Below, piece by piece: positions 24,530 to 27,451 of a stretch of 64,000 nucleotides of DNA (its first letter is position 1; each line of letters begins with the position of its first letter). The notes under the pieces are model-generated. The model was not told the DNA's origin, ran no database searches, and saw only the letters and a program-made list of their open reading frames with translations. A program made the translations under genes and the position numbers. Source of the DNA: an uncultured Actinomycetes bacterium (GTDB lineage: Bacteria > Actinomycetota > Actinomycetes > Nanopelagicales > Nanopelagicaceae). The stretch is taken from positions 1-64,000 of the forward strand of contig CALEGP010000004.1 of assembly GCA_937876245.1 (NCBI GenBank). Reading direction: 5' to 3'.

Positions 24530-25285
24530 TTATTCGTTAACGACGTCAAACCTATTTATTGCTGCGCTCTCTTCAAGTTCCTGATCAAATAATTCATCGC
24601 GCGATGGCAGTAAATCTTCCTCTATCTGTGCCATTTGAGTGGCGCTCCACGCTCCTGGAATTGTTAGATCAATAATCCGCTCCGCGCGAAAAGCCTTTGC
24701 AGCTGTTACATAAGTTGGTTTAGGAATGCTTGTAGGTTGCCAGCTTGCGCCATCTTTCGGAATTACTACAACTCCTGCGCTATCGATTCGCTCGATTAGG
24801 GGAATCCAATGTTCTTTATTTTCTGAAATAAAATCAGTTCGCGATGAAAAGGTAACAACATCTAGCGGCTCAGTTACTACGCTTGCCGAAGAAATTTGTT
24901 GGAATGCTTTTACTCTTCTCTGTTTGACTTGACTTGCAACTATTTGACGCCGAACATGTAAAACATAAATTCCTAGCGCTGTTATCGGTAAAAATATTAT
25001 GGAGCCTGAGATCGTTGCAAATGCCCAAAGCGCTACAATGGTTAAGAGTAAAAAAGTTAAGGCAGAAAATATTATTCGGCGATTTGTAATTTGTTTTTGA
25101 ATTTTAATCTTCTCACCAGTACTTGAAAGTAAATTTATTGAACCATTTTCACCAACTACTCGCATCGCACTCTTATATCTTTCCGCAGATTTACCTGAAG
25201 TTTCGTCGTGGCTTGTAATCCATTTGGGCAGAAAATAAGCTGCCCACATCCCGAGGATGATTAGATAGATAAAACCGGAGGCCAT
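24530..25285 (-). CDS. Membrane division protein GlpR/SepX-like
   Basis: 251 residues. The N terminus is one membrane helix followed by a short conserved segment (FIYLIILGMWAAYFLPKWIT, then SAERYKSAMRV), which I recognise as the start of actinobacterial SepX/GlpR (Rv0996-type). Two more adjacent membrane helices lie at about residues 70-110 and are followed by a cytoplasmic C-terminal region. In Corynebacterium GlpR is the membrane receptor of the MoeA-like Glp and both influence FtsZ; in Streptomyces SepX supports division. Glp and a RimJ-like gene are just upstream, the same order as Rv0994-Rv0996 of M. tuberculosis. The protein is shorter than the mycobacterial one as I remember it. Identity is by pattern and synteny. 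Confidence 0.78.
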   Translation of the reverse strand: MASGFIYLIILGMWAAYFLPKWITSHDETSGKSAERYKSAMRVVGENGSINLLSSTGEKIKIQKQITNRRIIFSALTFLLLTIVALWAFATISGSIIFLPITALGIYVLHVRRQIVASQVKQRRVKAFQQISSASVVTEPLDVVTFSSRTDFISENKEHWIPLIERIDSAGVVVIPKDGASWQPTSIPKPTYVTAAKAFRAERIIDLTIPGAWSATQMAQIEEDLLPSRDELFDQELEESAAINRFDVVNE

Positions 25286-25363: not shown

Positions 25364-25945
25364 TTACTTAATTTTTGGGTTTTCGATTACGTAAGTTAAG
25401 TGATCCCGCCATGCGCCATCGATGTGTAAGTACCGCGATCTCTCGCCCTCTAAAACATAGCCACACTTTTCGGCAACTCGCTTAGATGCGCTATTTTCTG
25501 GCCTTAAATTAATCTCGACTCTATGGAGGGCTAACTCATTTAGGCCGAAATTCGTTAGCAGTGAGACTGCCTTAGTTATGTGCCCTTGGTTAGCAAATTC
25601 TTGGTCAATCCAGTAGCCAATATGAGCCCCCCGCATCGCCCCGAATGTGATTCCACCCATCGTTATCTGACCGATGAAGCTCTCCTTGCCGCTTTCTAGG
25701 AGCCAAATGCCTAAAGAAATCGACCTAAGCGCTTCCCCATCTTTTCGATATTGGAGAACCATTCCTAAAAATGAGATTGGTGGAAGATGTGACTCGATTT
25801 CAGGACGAGTAGCCTCCCAAGGCGAGAGCCATTCCCGATTCTTGGCCCGGGTTAAATCCCAGACCTTCTTATCCCTGATTCGAAGCGGGCGCAAGAAGAG
25901 CTCGCCCTCGCGAAGCTTTATTGGCCAGTCAGATCTTGTGCTCAA
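25364..25945 (-). CDS. RimJ/RimL-type GNAT acetyltransferase
   Basis: 193 residues. It has the RimJ-like N-terminal REGELFLRPLRIRDKKVW, a central AHIGYWIDQEFANQGHITKA (acetyl-CoA site, variant Q-G-x-I/x-x-A) and LHRVEINLRPENSASKRVAEKCGYVLEGE. Family members acetylate the N-terminal residue of ribosomal proteins or small molecules. The true substrate is unknown; its constant place between glp and glpR in actinobacteria hints at a protein of the division complex, which is inference. It overlaps nothing but starts directly at the glp stop. Confidence 0.85.
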   Translation of the reverse strand: MSTRSDWPIKLREGELFLRPLRIRDKKVWDLTRAKNREWLSPWEATRPEIESHLPPISFLGMVLQYRKDGEALRSISLGIWLLESGKESFIGQITMGGITFGAMRGAHIGYWIDQEFANQGHITKAVSLLTNFGLNELALHRVEINLRPENSASKRVAEKCGYVLEGERSRYLHIDGAWRDHLTYVIENPKIK

Positions 25946-26863
25946 TTAGTTTGAGCTCCGCTCAAGGACCATGACATCAACAATCTCACCTGTCTTAATT
26001 CCTGCTGAATTTTCTGGAACTATGACTAACGCGTGCGCGTCAGATAGAGAAACCAGGTCGCCCTGTTCTTTTAGGACGCTTGCCACCACGCCATTTTCAG
26101 AAGAAAGGACGACTCTTACAAAACTGCTCTCACCTGAATTTGAAGTAATAGAGCCTTTGAGTTTCGCCTTCAACTGATTTCGAAAAATATTTGGTGACCC
26201 GAGCATTTTGCGAATCATTGGCCGGACAAATATTTCAGCGGCAATTCCTGCTGCTACCGGATCTCCTGGCAAGGTGAATACCGGCGTCATATCAGGCCCG
26301 ATCAAGCCAAAGTTATGTAAACCACTCTCGCTCATTTTTGGTAACACAGTTGTTATTTGACCAAGCTCCTTCAATACCGCCGTAATTAACTCAAAAGATT
26401 CATCATGGCGTGCCCCGCTAATTAGGATGAAATCTGCACGAACTAATTGATCCTCGATAACTTCTTTCAATTGTTGGTGATTCTCCGGAATCATATGAAC
26501 TCGAAAACCATTCGCTCCAGCTTCTCGGACTGCAGATGTGAGCATCCATGAATTTGTTTCATAATCTCCCTCGGCTTCACCGCGCAGCTGTCCGGGCTCA
26601 ATTAAATCGTTGCCAGCAGAAATTACGACAACTCTTGGATGTGGCATCGTAGGAAGCCGATCCAGGCCAATCGATGCTGCAAGCCCAATCTGGGTAGATC
26701 GGATTCGAGAACCTGCTCGCATGACTAATCGCTCGCCAGCATAAATATCTGTGGCAAGTGTCGCGCCATGCGCGTCTAAAAGTGGCATATCAAAAGGGGC
26801 GAGTGGGGATGCGATTTCAAGAAGCTTTTCTAAAAGCTCCTCGACGCTTGCTTGTTCTTCCAT
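25946..26863 (-). CDS. Glp: MoeA/gephyrin-like protein lacking domain II
   Basis: 305 residues; intact MoeA proteins have about 390-430. The N terminus (VEELLEKLLEIASPLAPFDM, LLDAHGATLATDIYA) matches MoeA domain I, but the sequence then jumps straight to LVMRAGSRIRSTQIGLAASI. The stretch of about 100 residues that holds the DNSAMDGYA motif and all of domain II is missing. Domain III (VVVISAGNDLIEPG) and domain IV follow. The family motif SGGVSVGxxD is replaced by SGARHDESF, and PGNPVS by PGDPVAAG. Molybdenum-cofactor synthesis is therefore unlikely. Next to rimJ and glpR it is best read as Glp, the division scaffold. No frame break is visible. Start supported by a TAGGGT box 6 nt upstream. 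Confidence 0.8.
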   Translation of the reverse strand: MEEQASVEELLEKLLEIASPLAPFDMPLLDAHGATLATDIYAGERLVMRAGSRIRSTQIGLAASIGLDRLPTMPHPRVVVISAGNDLIEPGQLRGEAEGDYETNSWMLTSAVREAGANGFRVHMIPENHQQLKEVIEDQLVRADFILISGARHDESFELITAVLKELGQITTVLPKMSESGLHNFGLIGPDMTPVFTLPGDPVAAGIAAEIFVRPMIRKMLGSPNIFRNQLKAKLKGSITSNSGESSFVRVVLSSENGVVASVLKEQGDLVSLSDAHALVIVPENSAGIKTGEIVDVMVLERSSN

Positions 26864-26869
26864 GACTAA

Positions 26870-26875
26870 ACCCTA
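26870..26875 (-). promoter_or_regulatory. -10 element TAGGGT of a leaderless transcript (glp)
   Basis: TAGGGT on the minus strand, 6 nt (TTAGTC) before the glp ATG. It lies only 9 bp from the divergent box at 26885-26890. Confidence 0.5.
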
Positions 26876-26884
26876 CTTCTTAAT

Positions 26885-26890
26885 TAGAGT
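26885..26890 (+). promoter_or_regulatory. -10 element TAGAGT of a leaderless transcript
   Basis: TAGAGT, 6 nt (AATTCC), then ATG at 26897 of the cyclo-ligase gene. The 33-bp gap to glp thus carries two back-to-back -10 boxes, and each -35 region would lie inside the opposite gene. Confidence 0.5.
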
Positions 26891-26896
26891 AATTCC

Positions 26897-27451
26897 ATGG
26901 ATGTCGGAAGCATGAAGAAGCGAGAACTTCGTCAGAGATTTCGAAGTGAAAGATCGCTCCGGGATTTGGCTGAATCGTGGGTTCACATAATTAATTCCGA
27001 TGAGTTCATGGCTGCCAAAACGATTGCTAGTTACCTTTCCTATGGCGATGAACCTCAAACTAAAGATTTAAATGAGGCACTTATCAAAAACGGAAAGACT
27101 CTGCTTTTGCCCAGGATGCTAAAAAATAGAAATCTGGAATGGGTAATCTGGGATGGCAAGATGTCAAAACTCGTAAAGAGCGGAAAAATTCTCGAACCAG
27201 TCGGTAACCCAGAATCTGAGAACGGCATTGATATCGTCATTGTTCCAACCCTGCATGCAACCCGCGAAGGAGATCGGTTAGGCCAAGGTGGTGGCTCCTA
27301 TGATCGAGCACTATCAAGGATTTCAGCCTGGCGAATCGGGCTTATTTATTCGGGAGAATTAACCATTGAGCCCTTTCCCGTTGAAACTCACGATATAAAA
27401 CTAAACGCAATTGCCACGCCTGATTTAATTCTTCGATTTCCTAAAAATTAA
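26897..27451 (+). CDS. 5-formyltetrahydrofolate cyclo-ligase family protein
   Basis: 184 residues. N-terminal KKRELRQRFRSERS (basic ATP-binding segment), IASYLSYGDEP, and the C-terminal family signature RLGQGGGSYDRALS (GxGxGYYDR pattern). It converts 5-formyl-THF to 5,10-methenyl-THF using ATP, returning stored folate to use; PurU in the same window handles 10-formyl-THF. It diverges from glp as Rv0992c does from the galU-moeA1 group, except that no galU lies here. Confidence 0.9.
   Translation: MDVGSMKKRELRQRFRSERSLRDLAESWVHIINSDEFMAAKTIASYLSYGDEPQTKDLNEALIKNGKTLLLPRMLKNRNLEWVIWDGKMSKLVKSGKILEPVGNPESENGIDIVIVPTLHATREGDRLGQGGGSYDRALSRISAWRIGLIYSGELTIEPFPVETHDIKLNAIATPDLILRFPKN

Follow-up and report, generated by a model that had tools for sequence, protein, structure and literature searches.

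MoeA of Escherichia coli, the E domain of gephyrin and Cnx1E are molybdenum cofactor (Moco) enzymes with a domain II and an intact active site, and gephyrin does both jobs, enzyme and scaffold, in one protein. Glp is a bacterial counterpart of gephyrin, and DivIVA/Wag31 is a known partner of the membrane protein GlpR. The Glp of Corynebacterium glutamicum (Cgl0883; PDB 8bve and 8bvf) takes part in assembling the division machinery and retains domain II (residues 46–145; PMC10522489). A hairpin in its domain IV, with M361 and Y369, is required for FtsZ and GlpR binding alike. We found no report in the open-licence literature of a Glp without domain II. To our knowledge, it is an open question in the field which of the four Glp domains serve division, as is the enzyme activity of Glp.

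We analysed a window of 64,000 nucleotides (contig CALEGP010000004.1) from a 1.52-Mb genome whose relatives include Ca. Planktophila versatilis and Nanopelagicaceae metagenome-assembled genomes. It encodes a short Glp that resembles the C. glutamicum protein in its degenerate catalytic loop, its proline-rich hinge 2 and the adjoining glp and glpR genes, but lacks domain II. It shares the fold of domains I, III and IV with the Moco enzymes, without their domain II and active site.

The short Glp of the window

The short Glp is encoded by an uninterrupted 305-codon frame with an ATG start (Table 1). The Pfam models MoeA_C (domain IV) and MoCF_biosynth (domain III) matched it above threshold, and just the last 21 positions of MoeA_N matched. 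Among solved structures, C. glutamicum Glp (8bve) is nearest to it in both sequence and fold (E = 4.8e-38, residues 39–301 against 148–416), and a family profile lowers the E-value to 4e-50. Given the limits of C. glutamicum domain II, the missing stretch (about residues 40–150 of that protein) corresponds to domain II and, at either end, a few residues of linker, and DNSAMDGYA falls within it. The AlphaFold2 (AF2) model of the protein alone (pLDDT 84.8, pTM 0.83) contains no domain II. In Foldseek searches, its top PDB matches were 8bve and 8bvf (TM 0.83, normalised by query length); the 305-residue query was spread over about 400 alignment columns, indicating one large gap, the pattern of a clean domain excision. 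Thus, Pfam, AF2 and Foldseek agree that the protein departs from the four-domain architecture of Glp.

Table 1. Features of the glp locus, numbered by position in the window
Feature	Position	Strand	Basis
Membrane protein GlpR/SepX (251 aa), retaining the C-terminal motif WQPxxxPxPTYVxAxKA..R.IDL..PGxW	24530..25285	-	family HMM; motif alignment
GNAT acetyltransferase of the RimJ type; its gene separates glp from glpR in every locus scanned	25364..25945	-	Pfam; locus scans
Short Glp (305 aa), MoeA-derived, without domain II	25946..26863	-	ORF, Pfam, PDB alignment, AF2, Foldseek, NCBIfam
Domain IV (residues 228-305); its hairpin 246-263 corresponds to the C. glutamicum FtsZ/GlpR-binding hairpin; G(S/Q)GSH gone	25949..26182	-	Pfam, AF2, alignment
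Residues 76-227, domain III (MoCF_biosynth fold)	26183..26638	-	Pfam; AF2 model
PGNPVS motif, changed to PGDPVA	26252..26269	-	alignment
Ex-catalytic loop, SGGVSxGAYD changed to SGARHDESF (most of family: SGE.HDESF)	26393..26419	-	alignment
Domain I, second half (residues 43-75), one of the best-conserved parts; ends in Pro-rich hinge 2 (MPHP)	26639..26737	-	alignment, identity per part, signature positions
Deletion junction, residues 42/43 (DIYA/GER), precise to a few residues; loss of about 110 residues, domain II among them	26735..26740	-	alignment
Residues 1-42, N-terminal segment: start of domain III and first half of domain I	26738..26863	-	alignment; C. glutamicum domain limits (PMC10522489)
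TAGGGT, six bases 5' of the short glp ATG; possible -10 of a leaderless transcript	26870..26875	-	upstream sequences of relatives
5-formyl-THF cyclo-ligase; conserved next to the (galU-)glp operon, in divergent orientation	26897..27451	+	locus scans

These results bear out the sequence-only reading, which had described a Glp/MoeA protein without domain II and its catalytic loop; the changes of SGGVSVGxxD to SGARHDESF and of PGNPVS to PGDPVA that it had proposed were confirmed by alignment. The fourth active-site motif, G(S/Q)GSH of domain IV, is likewise gone, and none of the MoeA motifs DGYA, SGGVSxG, PGNPVS and GSH is present. The loss of the loop by itself is ordinary for a Glp, since C. 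glutamicum Glp has also lost SGGVSxG.

That the protein is a Glp rather than a MoeA, as had been supposed, is supported. The best NCBIfam model is Glp_gephyrin (244.7 bits, against 164.1 for MoeA_actino); the score lies below the Glp_gephyrin cut-off of 475, as expected for a protein from which a quarter of the model is missing. In the phylogenetic tree, Glps are separated from MoeAs with support 100/100, and the short Glp lies in the Glp clade. It keeps 19 signature positions, including the hinge-2 proline P74 and an EDQLxR helix, that are conserved in full-length Glps and in the short Glps of both families described below and are rare in MoeAs. P74 and P76 of hinge 2 are invariant across the family, and P74 is absent from the 11 MoeAs compared; hinge 1 (PLAPFDMP) was inspected by eye and left unscored. 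We consider it quite probable that the window protein is orthologous to Glp, the divisome protein of actinobacteria, and has been cut down to a non-enzymatic protein that most likely serves as a scaffold, which GlpR would tie to the membrane.

Two probable origins of the short form

Among 251 genomes of the Nanopelagicaceae, the acI actinobacteria of fresh water, 239 have a Glp match, and the matches listed are almost all collinear short frames. The short form is found in nearly all genera examined, while genera g6 and g38 keep forms of 404–409 residues with domain II. The Nanopelagicaceae short Glps form a single clade (100/100), to which the full-length Glps of g6 and g38 are sister (joint clade 99/94). 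The domain II deletion thus has one origin within Nanopelagicaceae. The full-length proteins of g6 and g38 resemble the short Glp in locus and signature positions and differ from it in having domain II and all catalytic motifs.

The short Glp is under purifying selection and is selectively maintained: dN is about 0.10–0.24, with dS above 2 or saturated. The gene is shortened, its motifs are lost and one relative shows a break that may be a frameshift, all of which a decaying pseudogene or an assembly artefact would also present; such an origin has next to no probability, being refuted by family-wide conservation, which extends to single-contig genomes and includes a constant deletion boundary. 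The claim that the frame, start and promoter are intact, and that the gene is not decaying, thus stands for the frame, the ATG and the absence of decay, but not for the promoter: a scan for the sigma-70 consensus found none at the start of the short glp. A TA(A/G)GGT hexamer upstream of glp recurs in many relatives and is compatible with a leaderless transcript. In the broken relative (L030, G019:C81), the Glp frame seems shifted between residues 49 and 84, by a frameshift or an assembly error.

Conservation is distributed unevenly along the protein. In the second half of domain I, the mean identity is 0.73 among Nanopelagicaceae short Glps versus 0.55 among full-length Glps; in domain IV, it is 0.33 versus 0.47. 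S149, G150, D154, S156 and I160 are invariant among 44 short Glps. These invariant residues, the better-conserved domain I and the SGE.HDESF loop conserved in most of the family could mean that the ex-catalytic pocket has become a new site for a ligand or partner, possibly with a new function outside division. We regard this as unlikely: the loop replacement differs in the early-branching genera g10 and g36 and in the short Glps of a second family, half of the pocket has gone with domain II, and the operon partner is still GlpR. A GlpR-linked scaffold is our best reading of the short Glp.

A search of related genomes for the deletion had been proposed; a loss of the same domain was found in a second family, f39. 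In genus g91 of this family, nearly all genomes with a complete Glp have frames of 308–341 residues without domain II (L228–L245 and L258–L261), and genera g145 and g92 have full-length Glps with degenerate motifs. As in Nanopelagicaceae, domain II of the g91 proteins is missing at nearly the same boundary, the operon is glp-rimJ-glpR and the genome is reduced. Unlike in Nanopelagicaceae, their loop reads (A/T)ACG(I/M)(S/N)A and PGNPVG is mostly retained. The tree groups the f39 short Glps with f39 full-length Glps (99/86) and the Nanopelagicaceae short Glps with their own full-length relatives (98/93), which requires two changes. A single clade of all short Glps, a grouping specified after the first searches, was rejected in an AU test (p = 0.034); one shared origin is disfavoured on this p-value, with some doubt left. 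The g91 loss is probably independent of that in Nanopelagicaceae, to judge from this phylogeny.

Still more divergent short Glp-like proteins occur in f39 genera g148 (L252, 328 residues) and g147 (L253, 313 residues). Their divergence prevented placement in the tree, and they could be further independent reductions. In the small genomes of f39 genera g142 and g144, a Glp match is absent in most cases.

Moco genes and the glp operon

MoeA_N matches are found in 58 of 159 Nanopelagicaceae genomes and MoaC in 58 of the 159, with nearly identical membership. Many genomes of the family have Glp and no other MoeA_N, and 11 complete one-contig genomes have a short Glp and no MoeA_N. Most short-Glp genomes lack any MoeA, and the remainder have a Moco cluster and a MoeA distinct from Glp. 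In the window genome, another contig carries the island narGHJI-mobA-moeA-moaC-mogA-moaE-moaA, with a full-length second MoeA. The sequence-only reading had made a full-length second MoeA with a complete Moco pathway one half of a case against a scaffold; that half is present in the window genome, but it is consistent with the enzyme role having passed to that MoeA and does not refute the scaffold. With its MoCF_biosynth fold kept, the short Glp might be imagined as still a Moco enzyme whose active site is minimal and unusual. This is very improbable, as all four active-site motifs are lost, many genomes without MoeA_N or MoaC keep the short Glp, and the Moco genomes have another MoeA. We reject the short Glp as a working MoeA, and Moco production does not run through the short glp.

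The full-length Glps of the two sister genera present another picture. In g6, moaC and mogA lie between glp and rimJ; in g38, moaC lies directly 3' of glp and is followed by the contig end. In both genera, Glp is the sole MoeA_N match, has intact motifs and is probably dual-function, as its motifs and gene neighbours suggest. Two loci, G031:C29:49920-51564 (L217) and G063:C32 (L218), encode a full-length Glp with intact motifs as sole MoeA_N match, have moaC directly next to it, and are candidates for a dual-function Glp.

The scan of gene order covered 18 families besides Nanopelagicaceae, together with g6, g38, f39 and several short-Glp genera. SGGVSxG and PGNPVS are intact in all 17 rows with moaC directly after glp and degenerate in all 34 others, so that the two traits, intact motifs and an adjacent moaC, go together in 51/51 rows. 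The moaC label comes from a direct scan for part of the rows; other short-Glp rows were labelled as lacking moaC because their glp–glpR spacing fits rimJ alone. Each trait changes five times on the tree, and the 51 agreements amount to about five independent changes: the best tree has five pairs, two of which lie on well-supported branches with both traits changing together. A sign test is non-significant, as there are too few independent pairs. The Fisher p-value for the rows takes no account of kinship and carries no weight as evidence.

In the course of events that we propose, the ancestral actinobacterial Glp would have been a working molybdopterin molybdotransferase encoded in a galU-glp-moaC-mogA-rimJ-glpR operon, and would also have served the division site via GlpR. 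Most Nanopelagicaceae would descend from an ancestor whose glp operon no longer contained moaC and mogA, with Moco then lost or made today via a separate MoeA. Freed of catalysis, Glp could have lost its catalytic motifs, and domain II, which forms the active site and not the central dimer region where partners bind, may have been excised in one clean in-frame deletion. The remaining domains I, III and IV would most likely act as a scaffold tied to the membrane through GlpR. We infer this order of events, together with dimerisation, GlpR binding and a division role of the short Glp.

Two apparently independent deletions of domain II, and sister genera with a full-length Glp as their seeming sole MoeA, separate the enzyme from the division function. 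We lean, by a modest degree, towards a general view: actinobacterial Glp was ancestrally dual-function, Moco enzyme and divisome scaffold in one, and would still be so in many families with a moaC-mogA operon; it would be a pure scaffold only where moaC and mogA have left, and its domain II, excised in two streamlined lineages, would hence be dispensable for the division role. If true, a dual-function Glp contradicts the published view of a group without catalysis and without moonlighting. The short Glp is an experiment of nature on the parts of Glp that division needs, and a small ready-made construct for structural studies and complementation.

GlpR, FtsZ and a proposed division role

In the loci scanned, the gene order cyclo-ligase, (galU), glp, rimJ, glpR is conserved. 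glp and glpR are co-localised in the window, and across Nanopelagicaceae GlpR matches mostly share a contig with Glp. The assignment of the neighbouring gene as glpR was upheld by a match to NCBIfam SepX_GlpR_2, related to SepX/GlpR of Streptomyces (SepX_GlpR), at 93 bits, which is under the curated cut-off of 150. Membrane segments were found by eye in its sequence, and it has the C-terminal motif W.P..P.P(T/S)YV, which is common to full-length-Glp genomes and f39 genomes. Its cytoplasmic stretch past the first membrane helix is shorter than in C. glutamicum GlpR.

Few parts of the short Glps are less conserved than the counterpart of the C. glutamicum hairpin, and domain IV is their most variable part. 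In length, this hairpin is close to those of other non-corynebacterial Glps; the short Glp does not have the Met361 and Tyr369 pair, the equivalent of Tyr369 being mostly lost. Met361 looks like a signature of Corynebacteriales, since most Glps outside this order lack it. A family HMM found no DivIVA/Wag31 in six Nanopelagicaceae genomes (G000, which is the window genome, G027, G031, G035, G110 and G120); the C. glutamicum control was positive, and a divergent homologue may escape this HMM. Given the poorly conserved hairpin and the undetected DivIVA/Wag31, a division role of the short Glp is argued from gene neighbourhood and homology. Of the earlier proposal that the scaffold is kept and the enzyme stripped away, the removal of the enzyme half stands, but a scaffold kept in its known form is not supported.

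FtsZ binding by the short Glp through the domain IV hairpin is uncertain. The short Glp may have kept its tie to GlpR alone and lost FtsZ binding, acting as a partner or stabiliser of GlpR and not linking FtsZ to the membrane. We hold this as a tentative possibility: the unconserved hairpin residues, the relaxed domain IV, the conserved GlpR tail and the missing DivIVA all speak for it, and against it stand the kept C-terminal peptide of FtsZ (DDMDIPDFMK in the window genome) and the lack of Met361 in most full-length Glps outside Corynebacteriales as well. The kept FtsZ tail is not decisive for a link to Glp, because SepF and others bind the same tail. The end of the tail has shifted from LDVPDFLK to forms like EIDIPDFMK in most short-Glp genera, g10 and g36 excepted (FtsZ C-termini L177–L198).

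The 5' flank of glp varies among these genomes. In g6 and many other families, galU lies between the cyclo-ligase gene and glp; it is absent from the window at 26864–26896, where the two genes diverge and 33 bp separate their starts.
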